In this document: positions 16,407 through 21,617 of the stretch, in pieces
Numbering within the stretch: the stretch's first letter is position 1
Layout of the letters: the number at the start of each line of letters is the position of its first letter
Source of the DNA: a virus
DNA: 34,046 nucleotides
IMG/VR virus record: IMGVR_UViG_3300032288_002406
Span: 1 to 34,046 of that record
Reading direction: 5' to 3' (one strand)
Translations under genes and position numbers: made by a program
The notes under the pieces: model-generated
Told to the model about the DNA's origin: nothing
The model's input: only the letters and a program-made list of their open reading frames with translations
The model's database searches: none

Positions 16407-18539
16407 TTAATTATAGGCTAATAAATCAGAACCCTCAAGTAGGCGAATAGAGGCATAGCGAAAAGCATCTGAGCAATTATGTACTAATATTCCATTTGCA
16501 AAATACTCATGGTTATTTTCAATGGTTAAATCAAATACTTGTTGTTCTAATAATTTTATTACACTTATCTCCACAACTTCTTGTTTTATAATATTTATTT
16601 GTGATAAATGTTCCATTGCATTTACAACATTTCCTTTCAATATTATCAACTCCTCTTTTTCTTCTGTCAGCTGACTTACATTTATTTGAGCAAAATTTAG
16701 CAGACTTTTTGTTTTTGGTAAAAATAATTGAACATTGTATGCAATTAGTTTCTCCAAATGTTTTATTACCAAAGTTGCATTTAATTGCATTGTTTCTATG
16801 CCACTCAATTCCTTCAGGAGATTTATGCCATTTTGGAGCTGCCTCAATACCGAGTTTATGGAATTTTTTAAACCATTCTGGATTGTTTTTAATCTTATTT
16901 TTAGCGTGTTCAGATAAATGTTTTCTACCTTCAATACATTCAAGATTTTCAATTGAATTATTGTAGGAATTACCGTCTTTATGGTGAACATGATAACCTT
17001 TTGGAATTTCTCCATTATAATGCTTCCATATTTCAGTATGTGCCCTTTTTGTTCCTCTTGAAAAGTATCTTTCTCTTGGAAACAATTTATATTTTTTTCC
17101 GTTAAATTCTTGATACGGTAAACCGTCATCCCCGATTTTAATTCCGAAATCTTTATCCATCCTTGATTTGTTTTAATTAAATGATTTTCAGTACAAGTCA
17201 AAGATAATAAAAAAGTATCGAAATGTATCAAGTATTTATTTACTTGTTTCTTTCCGTTATTATGGATATTTTTAACCTTGTTATAATTATTTGTAGTTAA
17301 AACATAGTCATTTATTTTAATCTCATCTATTCTTTTTAATCCTTTATTAGTTTGAATCATGGTATCACCAACAAAACAATGATTATCCATATCAACAGGT
17401 GTGCTACTTTTACGGTCGTTCCAAACGTAATTCCTTAACTCGTACTTTCCGTTGTGACTTTGTGGCGTGATAACAATTTGATAATCATTGATTATCTTAA
17501 TACCTTCAACAACTGAACCAGCGTATTTTTCGGTTTTCACAACATTTAGCCCTGAACTTTGCATTCCTTCGATTAAACGTGGTTCACTTGTATCTGCCAC
17601 TATCAAGGCGTTTGGTTCAACGAAATGTTTAATCTTTGATATAACCATGTCATAAGATAGGTTTTGTTCGTAAATAACCTCATGGACGTATATTTTCTTA
17701 GCCCCTTTGTCAACTGCAACTTTAACCAATGCCAACGGGTCTGGGTAGAATCCAAAGTCTAACCCATAAGCATACGGTAAAGACGTATCAAATTCGCCCT
17801 CAACCCAATTAGGATATATAACCCCTTGTTTCTTATCAAGCCATTTTCCTAAGAAACGGTGTGCGTATGCTTCAGGATTTGTCTTCTTAAGGTTTGTTAT
17901 CTTTGCTAAGTAGTCAGCATTGAGGTTGTTGTAATTGTCAAAGTACGTTGTATGTATGTGCGTTATATCAGGATGTGTACTTATAGGTACTTGCACCCCT
18001 TCAATTGTTTCCATTCGATGTGATTTCTCAAACCAACGTTTCCAAATCCAATGTTCAACCGACTGGGGATTCATAACTAATATGACAATATTAGGAATAT
18101 CAGGCATTCTAATTGACTCATCAATGGTGTTGAAGTCTTTTTCGTCAACAAACTCTTCAGCCTCATCAACGATAAAAACGTTTAACCCTGTAATGGATTT
18201 TAGCTTTGCTGTTTGATTGCCCGAACTTGTTTTAATCCCTGAAAATATAATACTTGACTTTGTCGCCTTGTGGCTTATGAAAGAGTTGGAAAGGTTGAAC
18301 TCATCACCAACCCCGAGCAATTCCAGCTTTTCCCTGAACTCTGGGATGACCGATATATTAGCGGACGAAAGCGTATAACGTGTATATAGAACTGTCCAAT
18401 TCTTGTTAGCTAATAGCATATTACAAACCCAAAGTGCAATGGTATATGACTTTGCCGAACCACGTCCACCAGTTAAAATAAAATAACGGGTGTTTGGTTT
18501 CCAAAGTGGCTCATATTTCTCATTGACTTTTATTTCCAT
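16407..18539 (-). CDS. terL: Terminase large subunit, interrupted by an intein
   Basis: The 710-codon frame encodes the DNA packaging motor and nuclease. Walker A is TGGRGSAKS (residues 23-31), Walker B VFIVDEAEE (about 121-129), and the nuclease domain shows YGLDFGF (about 258) and IVADTSEP (about 315). After DMDNH at residue 387 the frame enters an intein, which begins CFVGDT (388) and ends GILVHN (688). The host protein resumes CSDAFRYASIRL. Excision gives a 409-residue terminase, normal for this type. The insertion point lies by the third nuclease acid (the D of SDAFRY), so unspliced protein should be inactive. It follows the small terminase gene and a membrane protein gene. If splicing failed, packaging would stop. 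Confidence 0.93.
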   Translation of the reverse strand: MEIKVNEKYEPLWKPNTRYFILTGGRGSAKSYTIALWVCNMLLANKNWTVLYTRYTLSSANISVIPEFREKLELLGVGDEFNLSNSFISHKATKSSIIFSGIKTSSGNQTAKLKSITGLNVFIVDEAEEFVDEKDFNTIDESIRMPDIPNIVILVMNPQSVEHWIWKRWFEKSHRMETIEGVQVPISTHPDITHIHTTYFDNYNNLNADYLAKITNLKKTNPEAYAHRFLGKWLDKKQGVIYPNWVEGEFDTSLPYAYGLDFGFYPDPLALVKVAVDKGAKKIYVHEVIYEQNLSYDMVISKIKHFVEPNALIVADTSEPRLIEGMQSSGLNVVKTEKYAGSVVEGIKIINDYQIVITPQSHNGKYELRNYVWNDRKSSTPVDMDNHCFVGDTMIQTNKGLKRIDEIKINDYVLTTNNYNKVKNIHNNGKKQVNKYLIHFDTFLLSLTCTENHLIKTNQGWIKISELKSGMTVYRIKNLTEKNINCFQEKDTFQEEQKGHILKYGSIIMEKFQKVIMFTIKTVIPTIIQLKILNVLKVENIYLNTLKIRLKTIQNGLKNSINSVLRQLQNGINLLKELSGIETMQLNATLVIKHLEKLIAYNVQLFLPKTKSLLNFAQINVSQLTEEKEELIILKGNVVNAMEHLSQINIIKQEVVEISVIKLLEQQVFDLTIENNHEYFANGILVHNCSDAFRYASIRLLEGSDLLAYN
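16476..17378 (-). mobile_element. Intein (301 residues) in terL, with an HNH gene nested in another frame
   Basis: The Cys1 codon is at 17376-17378 and the terminal Asn codon at 16476-16478; the extein then resumes with Cys (+1). Splice motifs are visible: block A CFVGDTMIQTNKG, block B LTCTENHLIKTNQGW, then SELKSGMTVYR, and at the C-terminus QQVFDLTIENNHEYFANG ILVHN (penultimate His, final Asn). The middle of the frame, about 190 codons, is not like any intein or endonuclease and is strongly biased; it matches the HNH gene read in another frame. So the splice halves are joined in frame while the endonuclease is out of frame. Cys-type nucleophiles at both junctions are expected to support standard splicing. 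Confidence 0.88.
16531..17160 (-). CDS. HNH homing endonuclease encoded in an alternative frame inside the intein
   Basis: A complete 209-residue frame with its own ATG (17158-17160) and TGA (16531-16533), shifted by -1 relative to terL. The N-terminus GKKYKLFPRERYFSRGTKRA, followed by HTEIWKHYNGEIPKGYHVHH (residues 41-60, KDGN next) and ENLECIEGRKHLSEHAKN, is a textbook phage HNH endonuclease: His-His at 59-60, Asn near 67, His at 81. Two C-terminal zinc-ribbon-like units follow: CIQC...FCSNKC and CCKC...SCGDKC. The ATG overlaps intein codons for GW of block B. Its last codons overlap those for QVF before block G. It would cut intein-free terL and drive homing. Expression needs its own start within the terL message; no Shine-Dalgarno is expected here. 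Confidence 0.9.
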   Translation of the reverse strand: MDKDFGIKIGDDGLPYQEFNGKKYKLFPRERYFSRGTKRAHTEIWKHYNGEIPKGYHVHHKDGNSYNNSIENLECIEGRKHLSEHAKNKIKNNPEWFKKFHKLGIEAAPKWHKSPEGIEWHRNNAIKCNFGNKTFGETNCIQCSIIFTKNKKSAKFCSNKCKSADRRKRGVDNIERKCCKCNGTFITNKYYKTRSCGDKCNKIIRTTSI

Positions 18540-18748: not shown

Positions 18749-19055
18749 TTTCTTTTGTCTTTCCGTCTGTGAAAATAATCGTTGGAACGGTCACTTTTTC
18801 CCCTTGACTGGTTACGTCGATTTGTTGCTTTGATTTTCCGTAGGCACGGTCGAAAAGCAACTGAGCCGCTTTGATATCACCCTTTGCAGCTTTGCCCCTT
18901 AACATGTTTAAAATGGCTTGTGCTGCGGTTATACCGTCCTTTTCTTCGCCCATGACTTCAGCCATTAGCTTGTCTATTTCAGGTAGCTTTTTAGGGCGTC
19001 CGCCACCATTATTTCCACCATTTTTTAATTTTCCTCCATTTCTTCCTTCTCTCAT
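18741..19055 (-). CDS. terS: Terminase small subunit-like protein
   Basis: 104 residues directly upstream of terL with a short membrane protein gene between, overlapping the ABC-GNAT gene end by 4 nt. The N-terminal Gly/Asn-rich arm (GNNGGGRPKKLPEID) leads to a helical core (AVM GEEKDGITAAQAILNML, RGKAAKGDIKAAQLLFD, RAYGKSKQQIDV). The GRPKKLP arm and 'AA..LL.RaYGK' segment are typical of a small-terminase-like family found before terL in Bacteroidota phages. It would bind the packaging site and start DNA loading. It lacks a clear winged-helix motif, so the call rests on family likeness and position. Confidence 0.65.
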   Translation of the reverse strand: MREGRNGGKLKNGGNNGGGRPKKLPEIDKLMAEVMGEEKDGITAAQAILNMLRGKAAKGDIKAAQLLFDRAYGKSKQQIDVTSQGEKVTVPTIIFTDGKTKENG

Positions 19056-20125
19056 TTTACGAGGTTTTTACGAGGTTTTAATTCAAAAGATGCTGTAATT
19101 TTATTTGAAATTGTTTCTCCATATTTATTTTTATAACCTTTAATTCTTCCGTAATGATGGCAATTCCAGTCTTTTGATTTTTTTAATGAATGAATTAAAC
19201 TTGGTGAAGTTGTGTTTATTGTATAACGCCAATTATTATTTAAATATATTTTACCAATTTCATTTAACATTTTTAAACCTATTCCAATTCCTTGATAATC
19301 TGGAAATACAACCAATCTATGAACTCTTTTTTGATATTTCATGGCACTTGGTTGAGCAATAATACTAATAAATCCAGCTATTTCATCATTAATCATACAA
19401 ACAAAAACATTAGCAGCATCATTATGATTTGAATTTAAATAGTGGTACTTACTAAACATTTTCCATATTGATTTATCTGTTGTTTGAAATAATTCAAATT
19501 TAATATCAGGTCTTTTTTTTTTACCAGAATGTTTTATAAAAGTCATTGTATCGGTATTAAAAACCCAATCAGGCATTAACCATTCTTCTATATCAAAATG
19601 ACATGAAACAGCGATAAACTTTTTATCTGTTTTTCTGATTGCTTTCTGAGTGGCAAAAGAACCAATTTTTGCAATCTGTCTATCTACTACACTTGTAAAT
19701 TCATCAAATACAAATAATTCATTTTTTTGCAATATTGCATTGGCTAAATCTACCCTCATTTTCTCTCCATTACTCAAAACGTGATATGGTTTTAACCAAC
19801 TTGGGGGAGAACTAAAACCAACGCTATTAAAAGTATTTGTAATATCTTCGATGGAACAATCTTTAGGCATATCGTCCAATATGCTTTCGCTTTTATAATC
19901 AAAATTGGTAATATAACTTTCTGGAAATAACTGTTTTGCAATGGTTGTTTTTCCTGTTCCACTTTTACCAACTATTAATCCAATTTGCCAATCATCATCA
20001 ATATCAATACTACCTTTAAACCTTTCGGTTATATGGTTACTTTGTAAATCAAATCTTCCAATTACACTTGCAATGCGAAAAGATTTTTTAGGCTTGATTT
20101 CTTTTATAATGTCAAAAGTCGGCAT
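19052..20125 (-). CDS. ABC-type ATPase fused to a GNAT acetyltransferase-like domain (Mom-like candidate)
   Basis: 357 residues. The N-terminal half is an ABC ATPase without membrane part: Walker A VGKSGTGKTT (52-61), signature LSNGEKMRVDLA (about 117-128), Walker B LFVFDEFTSVVDR (about 138-150) and a switch histidine SCHF (about 175). The C-terminal half from about residue 205 is GNAT-like: KYHYLNSNHNDAANVFVCM, GFISIIAQPS, then the acetyl-CoA loop RLVVFPDYQGIGIGLKMLNE. GNAT-family Mom of phage Mu modifies adenine, and the 'HYL' start is reminiscent of it. It overlaps the ParB-like gene by 22 nt and the small terminase gene by 4 nt. Together these suggest DNA modification or packaging protection, which is inference. 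The locus is AT-richer than its neighbours. Confidence 0.75.
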   Translation of the reverse strand: MPTFDIIKEIKPKKSFRIASVIGRFDLQSNHITERFKGSIDIDDDWQIGLIVGKSGTGKTTIAKQLFPESYITNFDYKSESILDDMPKDCSIEDITNTFNSVGFSSPPSWLKPYHVLSNGEKMRVDLANAILQKNELFVFDEFTSVVDRQIAKIGSFATQKAIRKTDKKFIAVSCHFDIEEWLMPDWVFNTDTMTFIKHSGKKKRPDIKFELFQTTDKSIWKMFSKYHYLNSNHNDAANVFVCMINDEIAGFISIIAQPSAMKYQKRVHRLVVFPDYQGIGIGLKMLNEIGKIYLNNNWRYTINTTSPSLIHSLKKSKDWNCHHYGRIKGYKNKYGETISNKITASFELKPRKNLVK

Positions 20126-20616
20126 TCGTAATTCTGTTCTATTAGTTTATTATAAGTTCTTTCTTGTTCTTGTTCATCTTTACAAATAACTTCAATTTTA
20201 AACATTGATTTTATTTTATCAGATAAATCTTCCATTTCTTGTTCCTCCACCGTGTCAAACTGCGGTATCTCCAATCCCCATGCCTCCAAATCCTCAACTT
20301 CCCAGTCGTTCGCCAATGTATCCCAATCCCATTCCCCAAAAGCCACGTTATCAGCAATGATAAACCTTTGTTTTTCTTCCTCAGTTAAATCTTTAGCATA
20401 TTTTACGCAAGTGTCATCTATGTCTGTATATCCTAAATCTTGTAATGCTCTAAGTCGCATATTACCACCAAGAACCACGTTATTTTCATCTATAACAATT
20501 GGTCTAAGACTGAGCATTTTTGGGAACTCCTGAATACTTTGCTTTAGTTTTGCAAATTTTTCATCCCTTAAAACTCTTGGGTTGTTCGGGTTTGGTTTAA
20601 TGTCTTTTAGTTTCAT
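20104..20616 (-). CDS. ParB/sulfiredoxin-fold protein
   Basis: 170 residues. The N-terminus KLKDIKPNPNNPRVLRDEKF, then QSIQEFPKMLSLRPIVIDENN and VVLGGNMRLRALQDLGYTDI, is the ParB N-terminal (CTPase-type) fold, with the typical G-GxxR-xA box (LGGNMRLRA). The rest is acidic and helical (LSDKIKSMF, EVICKDEQEQERTYN). No helix-turn-helix or centromere-binding domain follows, so it is not a plasmid partition protein. Small ParB-like proteins of phages are often coupled to methylases or terminases. It lies between the GT-B and ABC-GNAT genes with 4- and 22-nt overlaps, so the pair is probably translated together. The precise function is unknown. Confidence 0.75.
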   Translation of the reverse strand: MKLKDIKPNPNNPRVLRDEKFAKLKQSIQEFPKMLSLRPIVIDENNVVLGGNMRLRALQDLGYTDIDDTCVKYAKDLTEEEKQRFIIADNVAFGEWDWDTLANDWEVEDLEAWGLEIPQFDTVEEQEMEDLSDKIKSMFKIEVICKDEQEQERTYNKLIEQNYECRLLTL

Positions 20617-21617
20617 ATAGTATTTAACACGTTTAAACGCATTTGATTAACTTTGATTAAATCTCTTTCCCTTTTAATCCAGTCTCTTCCAGCCTCCAAG
20701 TCCACAAAATACAAGTTATCTTTTTCTAAGTCACTTTGTATCATTTGTTTTAAATCGTTTTGGTCATCAAATAACCTTACTCCGTAAATATTAAACTCTT
20801 TTATATAACGTGGTGCATAAGGTATCGCCCCAGCGACCAGCATTTCCATTGCAAAATTATTGGATTTTGATTGATTAAAGTTGTCATTAGTTAAAGGAAA
20901 AATACCGTAATGCGGATTACTATTTTTCATCATCTCGAAATACTGGAACAAACTATTATTCCACGGTACATGAATCGCCTTTGGATACAATGTTTTTCCT
21001 AACCAATCAGGTAAACCAACGAAAGCAACTTCAACCGTTTCTTTTGCCATCAACCATTTCCAAAATAAATCAACCGTTTGTAAATCTTCGATATGTGTCA
21101 TTGAGCCACGCCACATAATGCGTTTCTTTTTATCGATTGCCTTATCTCGTTTCACAGCGACAAAAGGTGTCGTTTCTAAATCTATGGCATTAGGAATAAC
21201 GGTTATTTTATTTTCATCGTAATGTTGCTTATAAAAGTCTTTTAAATAAGGAGTTGAAGTGATAACATGGTCAGCGTATATAAAAGCACGTTCAACCGAT
21301 TTTTTAACCACCTCTTTACTAAAATGTTGGCTTGATGGGTTGGCTGGGTTTACCTCATGAAGTAAATCGTCATGGTCTAATATAACCTTTTTACCCATTT
21401 TCTTTGCCTCTGAAATCATTCCCAGTATATGGTCACCGTTAGGACGTTGAAACAAAACAACGTCAACGTTATAAAAGTCGTACCATTTTACGGTATCAGG
21501 ATTAAGGAAAGTGATTTCCATTGGAATTTCCCTTCTTAACTTTACGAAAGGATTGACCGAACGATAATAATCAGTCGTTGGACTTGAAAGATTTGTAACT
21601 ATACCAATTCTTATCAT
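20613..21617 (-). CDS. GT-B-fold glycosyltransferase (GT4-like)
   Basis: 334 residues with a GT-B layout. The N-terminal half has IGIVTNLSSPTTDYYRSVNP and KVILDHDDLLHEV; the linker has VITSTPYLKDFYKQHY and ITVIPNAIDLE, a motif typical of group 1 transferases. The C-terminal half has MWRGSMTHIED and a nucleotide-binding region with PLTNDNFNQSKSNNFAMEM then AGAIPYAPRYI. It transfers a sugar from a nucleotide sugar to an unknown acceptor, possibly DNA, a virion protein or host surface glycan. It follows the 57-residue gene with ATGA overlap and precedes the ParB-like gene. The exact sugar cannot be told. Confidence 0.8.
   Translation of the reverse strand: MIRIGIVTNLSSPTTDYYRSVNPFVKLRREIPMEITFLNPDTVKWYDFYNVDVVLFQRPNGDHILGMISEAKKMGKKVILDHDDLLHEVNPANPSSQHFSKEVVKKSVERAFIYADHVITSTPYLKDFYKQHYDENKITVIPNAIDLETTPFVAVKRDKAIDKKKRIMWRGSMTHIEDLQTVDLFWKWLMAKETVEVAFVGLPDWLGKTLYPKAIHVPWNNSLFQYFEMMKNSNPHYGIFPLTNDNFNQSKSNNFAMEMLVAGAIPYAPRYIKEFNIYGVRLFDDQNDLKQMIQSDLEKDNLYFVDLEAGRDWIKRERDLIKVNQMRLNVLNTI

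Follow-up and report, generated by a model that had tools for sequence, protein, structure and literature searches.

A putative homing intein in a phage terminase gene with an HNH endonuclease gene overprinted in a second reading frame

Canonical inteins unite a splicing domain and a homing endonuclease, fused in one reading frame. In fractured genes, which Dassa et al. are said to have described in 2009 (NAR 37:2560), split inteins such as gp41-1 reportedly have an endonuclease gene between their halves. A putative intein-encoded HNH gene lying out of frame within the terminase gene terL was noted in brucellaphages in 2015 (PMC4422536), in one passage on one phage group that includes one SNP silent in terL and no analysis of splicing residues, selection, relatives or mechanism. 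The ShiLan domain of phage DNA methylases, described in 2025, has an out-of-frame HNH gene in a methylase insertion and is reported to be actively homing; neither a splicing domain nor any intein motif was found in it by its authors, who concluded that it stays in the methylase (PMC11855218). A full-text literature search, with most subscription journals outside its scope, yielded no other out-of-frame intein HNH beyond the brucellaphage mention. Thus, the parts are known and one instance has been noticed before, but the family, its pattern of selection and its links to mini-intein, split-intein and intron forms appear to be undescribed.

The locus considered here lies in a window of 34,046 nucleotides (the whole stretch of viral DNA that was analysed, IMG/VR record IMGVR_UViG_3300032288_002406). 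Like the brucellaphage genes, it has an out-of-frame HNH open reading frame inside terL, and like ShiLan it has this frame within an insertion that keeps the host frame open; it differs from ShiLan, which has no splicing domain, in that a complete Hint intein surrounds the HNH gene, so it is not a ShiLan-type insertion. It resembles canonical inteins in combining an intein with a presumed homing endonuclease at a conserved active-site motif, but the endonuclease is encoded in the -1 frame, presumably as a separate protein, and the locus therefore does not qualify as an in-frame bifunctional intein. As in the fractured genes of the gp41-1 type, the endonuclease is separately encoded between the N- and C-terminal intein parts (IntN and IntC), but the host frame is unbroken and the nuclease is of the HNH type; split relatives with the same HNH family occur at loci L017, L056, L067, L073 and L081. 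The features, all on the minus strand, are as follows.

18539..16407, minus: terL, 710 aa, with no stop from end to end.
17379..18539, minus: terL N-extein, TerL residues 1-387, covering the ATPase and the greater part of the nuclease domain and ending ...VDMDNH (Pfam Terminase_3 / Terminase_3C; alignment of relatives up to the insertion point).
16476..17378, minus: intein within terL, C1 to N301, 301 aa (Pfam Intein_splicing, NCBIfam intein_Cterm; boundaries set by the empty sites in L236 and L237).
17109..17378, minus: N-terminal part of the Hint domain, intein residues 1-90, with blocks A and B (C1, T63, H66; invariance across 27-29 aligned inteins; AlphaFold pLDDT ~95).
17157..17162, minus: GGATGG, the block B Gly-Trp codons that contain the HNH ATG (read from the sequence).
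17160..16531, minus: putative gene for a 209-aa HNH endonuclease, running from ATG to TGA in the frame at -1 to that of terL (Pfam HNH_3, 2.7e-14; phrog_15471, 1.2e-28; pLDDT 91.7).
16930..17049, minus: HNH_3 catalytic region, HNH residues 38-77 (Pfam and alignment).
16596..17108, minus: terL-frame filler overprinted by HNH, intein residues 91-261 (low pLDDT; omega 0.92; similarity explained by the HNH frame).
16561..16743, minus: two inferred Cys4-type zinc ribbons of the HNH protein, C140/C143/C157/C161 and C178/C181/C196/C200 (cysteine pattern).
16476..16595, minus: C-terminal part of the Hint domain, intein residues 262-301, ending HEYFANGILVHN (alignment of inteins and AlphaFold).
16407..16475, minus: terL C-extein CSDAFRYASIRLLEGSDLLAYN, with the conserved TerL xDAxRY motif, and stop codon (terL translation; relatives).
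16443..16475, minus: 33-nt 3' flank of the insertion site, 24-33% different from L236 and L237.

The original prediction had placed intein blocks A and B and the C-terminal end of an intein in the terL frame, at positions 16476-17378 of a terL open from end to end, and had proposed a profile search of both frames. This search detected Terminase_3, Terminase_3C and Intein_splicing (Pfam) together with intein_Cterm (NCBIfam) in the terL frame and HNH_3 in the other, and the predicted interval was matched exactly: the first Cys of the intein is TerL residue 388, the last Asn is TerL residue 688, and Cys comes next (HN|C). The attributes that define an intein are present, namely a Hint domain with the block A and B residues, a C-terminal Asn followed by Cys at +1, and homologues of the host protein that are empty at the exact point of insertion. 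C1, T63, H66 and N301 are invariant among 27-29 aligned inteins, the +1 residue of which is C or S. The closest solved intein by profile comparison is the splicing intein gp41-1 (7e-24), in agreement with Foldseek, and AlphaFold modelled the Hint parts confidently (pLDDT ~86-96). Since terL is open throughout, the element is not a split intein, which would have the host frame broken between IntN and IntC. Sequence analysis thus confirms a complete Hint intein with intact splicing residues; protein splicing itself is inferred, without experiment.

The -1 frame contains, as the original prediction had stated, a full HNH gene of 209 codons with its own ATG and TGA, the ATG overlapping the Gly-Trp codons that follow block B. 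The catalytic motif is present in its product, with H59, H60 and H81 invariant and N68 and N72 nearly so in the alignment. Its cysteines C140, C143, C157, C161, C178, C181 and C196 are invariant in alignment A1, and C200 is nearly invariant; the two zinc ribbons are an inference from this pattern. The protein was confidently modelled by AlphaFold, and a Foldseek search with the model gave no strong match. The best PDB match of the HNH profile was I-HmuI (PDB 1u3e; profile E 0.003, Foldseek E 0.039), an HNH endonuclease encoded by a group I intron; the match is weak and lies mainly in the HNH core. A group I intron-encoded HNH was considered for the window as well and rejected, as no Rfam match was found in the window and the terL frame is open. 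The HNH protein is presumed to be a homing endonuclease, and site-specific cutting of the empty allele is inferred from circumstantial evidence, namely the empty relatives and a divergent flank.

The comparison with intein-less relatives that had been suggested for this locus was carried out, and the insertion site proved empty in each of the 79 close TerL relatives that were classified (76-98% identity). Two of them, L236 and L237, have an N-extein 98.4% identical to that of the window and read DNH|FLDSFRY and DNH|FCDALKY across the site, with Phe at the +1 position, where the window has Cys. The insertion looks recent in view of the emptiness of such similar phages. Upstream, the terL DNA of the window differs from that of L236 and L237 by ~7-10%; over the 33 nt that follow the site the difference is 24-33%, and over the next 33 nt it is 0%. 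This pattern is consistent with recent insertion and conversion of a short 3' flank, which may have supplied the catalytic +1 Cys. L236 and L237, which are otherwise near-identical, also differ from each other over the same 33 nt (0.30), so the flank may reflect divergence of the target site and not co-conversion.

A search of viral contigs with the HNH sequence found 50 loci, in most of which a long terL frame covers the HNH gene at the same frame offset. With loci added later and named phages, 45 distinct nested loci have the frame offset of the window; a single nested locus (L055) has HNH in the other alternative frame, is placed near the free-standing L080 in the HNH tree, and is apparently an independent overprint. 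In a search with the intein frame (80 loci), HNH is in the same frame in all 79 matches that bear an insert, and the remaining one (L160) is a 135-aa mini-intein without HNH at the same terL motif. The query of this search contained the filler and so favoured overprinted members; the search was repeated with the natural mini-intein L160 as the confirming sequence. Among the best 80 of 495 relatives so confirmed, HNH occupies the same frame in 68 and the intein frame in none; the other 12 are natural mini-inteins (125-141 aa) that lack HNH, several of them at the same terL motif. The absence of in-frame HNH holds for this sample only, because the search was seeded with the intein C-terminus and limited to the best 80 of 495 relatives. 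The mini-inteins indicate that the overlapped part is dispensable. Evidence on the frame comes from the HNH-search and intein-search loci alone, the 141/123 set being uniform by construction (one frame was read). The nested layout also occurs in three named phages, Tetrasphaera phage TJE1, Acinetobacter phage Highwayman and Rhodobacteraceae phage LS06-2018-MD07, in all of which terL is the only annotation over the nested region; nested endonucleases are thus easily missed. Because the same layout is found in many distantly related phages, it represents an established lifestyle and not an error, though splicing and cutting are themselves inferred. Overprinted inteins were also seen at other terL sites (L120, L132, L137, L138, L148 and L158), for example D-F-G-F|C...HN|C-D-P, and these sites are probably near nuclease motif I. 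Of the near-identical phages L013 and L015, the latter has a terL without the last intein block and the xDAxRY motif, by natural deletion or a difference in assembly.

When the terL-frame protein was held fixed and its codons were redrawn according to terL usage, the HNH frame acquired ~12 stops on average, and 0 of 2000 draws left it open. With the HNH protein fixed, 2.0 stops (codons permuted) or 5.8 (terL usage) were expected in the terL frame of the window, where there are none. Over 43 nested loci the terL frame has 0 stops, compared with 113 expected when codons are permuted within the gene and 217 by terL codon usage; in the third frame 1038 were counted and 1040 expected, and the corresponding figures for HNH genes without such nesting in an open frame are 123 and 122. 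The absence of stops is therefore confined to the intein frame, and there to loci in which the intein needs to be read through. In 13 independent close pairs, with changes sorted by their effect in both frames and simple counts made without correction for multiple hits, the HNH frame is under purifying selection (dNN/dSN 0.36, bootstrap 95% CI 0.27-0.48), and the overlapped intein frame is near neutral apart from the avoidance of stops (dNN/dNS 0.92, CI 0.77-1.09). For the non-overlapped part of Hint, dN/dS in close pairs is 0.25 (0.17-0.33). Independent conservation of the filler was rejected as an explanation of its similarity between distant loci, the observed identity of 0.220 being close to the 0.213 expected from HNH conservation and the absence of stops. 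The filler is unreliable in the AlphaFold model (pLDDT mostly 35-83). The original description of its sequence as nonsense-like holds in that there is no conserved content of its own, but it has to be qualified by a PHROG match (phrog_35162, 4.8e-10), which arises because other phages carry the same overprint. By these sequence comparisons, HNH and Hint are two selected proteins and the filler is tolerated. Inactivated HNH frames in relatives, which would have counted against the prediction, are limited to occasional decayed copies. In two of these, L012 and L158, a stop breaks the HNH frame and the intein/terL frame is still open.

The same HNH family has other carriers. Split inteins at the same motif, with HNH and without a continuous terL, were found at L017, L035/L038, L043, L056, L067, L073 and L081, and the host frame is broken between IntN and IntC in L056, L067, L073, L081 and Brochothrix phage BL3. 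L073 is Vibrio phage 1.238.A (NC_055735), which has HNH between the halves of a split intein and a CDS annotated as 'hedgehog/hint' that is IntC; its terL frame also has a further intein-like segment upstream with a C-terminal block of its own. In Lactobacillus phage CL2 (L081, 506-2771) the annotated terL stops after IntN, and IntC and the TerL C-terminus are in an unannotated frame; in BL3 (L233, 727-2607) IntN is in gp2, IntC and the TerL C-terminus are in gp3, and an HNH remnant lies between them. The CL2 and BL3 elements look like natural split inteins from their sequences. The gene annotated as 'terminase large subunit' in both phages is the N-terminal part with IntN alone. Loci that had been called free-standing because terL stops inside HNH are in part split inteins, and the 'free' groups in the HNH tree, stop counts and filler comparison mix split inteins with free-standing HNH genes. 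Free-standing HNH genes directly follow an intein-less terL at L024, L026, L041, L049, L080 and in the PAE1 group (L075/L076/L079), and in Shemara HNH is beside terL in the opposite orientation. In Exiguobacterium phage EauM-23 (L078, 2257-3165; MH844558), HNH is within a 907-nt insertion in terL, removal of which restores ...EDKNNHSIDATRY. This insertion has no Rfam match. It has an end resembling that of a group I intron and putative P7-like motifs, and is regarded as a candidate intron of that class carrying HNH of this family. The HNH tree requires at least 3 changes between nested and other states, the direction of which was not inferred. A speculative scenario, for which the odds are somewhat unfavourable, is that a single HNH lineage targeting the 3' end of terL repeatedly took up different carriers (free-standing beside terL, group I intron, overprinted intein), that loss of the host frame in an overprint then yields split inteins, and that the split inteins of fractured genes, including the gp41-1 type, could stem from overprinted inteins.

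The manner in which HNH would be expressed bears on whether it is a separate protein. An ATG is located near the start of the HNH frame in 112 of 123 clusters, and GTG or TTG in 9; in the clusters examined, the first start codon follows a stop in the HNH frame by a median of 4 codons, and the first ATG overlaps an intein-frame TGG codon in 83 of 107. Shine-Dalgarno (SD)-like 5-mers are present upstream of 23% of nested starts, as against 4% of the spurious starts in these genes. No such 5-mer precedes the HNH start of the window, which has no good SD (duplex +2.9). Hosts in the Bacteroidota often do without SD, and the nearest HNH relatives of the window include Bacteroidota MAGs; the host of the window has not been shown. 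Alternatively, programmed -1 frameshifting might make a TerL-IntN-HNH fusion with no separate HNH start, the -1 frame being, as is generally known, the direction of the commonest bacterial frameshift. However, the stop so shortly before the first start confines any shift to a tiny gap or to the inside of HNH, and X_XXY_YYZ slippery heptamers are not enriched before HNH starts (23 clusters, 33 expected), with none between the HNH-frame stop and start in the window. For want of slippery-site enrichment the fusion was rejected and is regarded as very unlikely. The recurrent start codons and SD enrichment, together with the lack of slippery sites, favour internal initiation, and HNH is inferred to be translated separately from an internal start, decoupling splicing from homing.

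The locus is best explained, with a probability of roughly 85%, as a homing intein with an overprinted, separately expressed HNH endonuclease, of which the architecture, recurrence, selection pattern and empty sites are established by sequence comparison, and splicing, HNH translation, cleavage and homing are inferred. The original interpretation is thus borne out as far as sequence evidence goes. TerL would be translated through the whole intein, the Hint domain, with the overlapped ~170 residues as a tolerated loop on its fold, would excise itself and join DNH to C-SDAFRY, and TerL would be restored. Ribosomes starting internally at the ATG within the block B GGATGG would make a separate 209-aa endonuclease with HNH and zinc-ribbon parts. 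During co-infection this enzyme may cut the conserved nuclease-motif DNA of terL in an intein-less phage, and repair may copy the intein together with HNH and a short 3' flank, the source of the +1 Cys. Hint and the HNH protein would be kept by selection, and the filler would need only to avoid stop codons. Against this explanation count the lack of expression, splicing or cleavage data, the poor SD at the start in the window, the weak match to I-HmuI and the ambiguous 3' flank.

Other interpretations were given little weight. HNH might be a cofactor of DNA packaging by the terminase and not a homing enzyme, similar to the HNH proteins encoded beside terminases: such terminase-linked proteins are known, at least as Kala et al. 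are cited within PMC4422536, and in the loci seen HNH mostly lies within terL or adjacent to it. Such a role is improbable for a gene that 79 close relatives lack at the site and that mini-inteins and one split intein have lost, and the occurrence of HNH in a candidate intron as well as within inteins at several sites of terL is the pattern of a dispensable mobile enzyme. An inactive remnant, in which the intein, HNH or both no longer function, is conceivable given related loci with broken HNH (L012, L158) or none, but has only a slight chance of being correct for the window, where neither frame is broken, the conserved residues for catalysis and splicing are intact and the insertion looks recent by comparison with empty phages 98.4% identical in the N-extein. 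Two compensating frameshifts introduced by assembly or sequencing, which the original prediction had named as grounds for its own refutation, could mask a continuous in-frame intein-HNH gene of the usual architecture; this can be dismissed for practical purposes, being refuted by the recurrence of the layout in many independent contigs and in TJE1, Highwayman and LS06, and both frames evolve as an overlap predicts.

As one stretch of DNA apparently yields the splicing domain and the endonuclease as separate proteins, either can evolve, be expressed or be lost without the other. At one terL motif there is a graded series that runs from the empty site through free-standing HNH, mini-intein and overprinted intein to split inteins with HNH and with decayed HNH, by which the origins of intein endonucleases and of split inteins, both long-open questions, become directly testable. 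The nested loci are also a large natural set of overlapping genes of which one is strongly selected and the other nearly free.

Elsewhere in the window, positions 19052-20125 encode an ABC-type ATPase fused to a GNAT acetyltransferase, adjoined by a weakly ParB_N-like frame (20104-20616), and a glycosyltransferase-like frame (20613-21617) adjoins this region.
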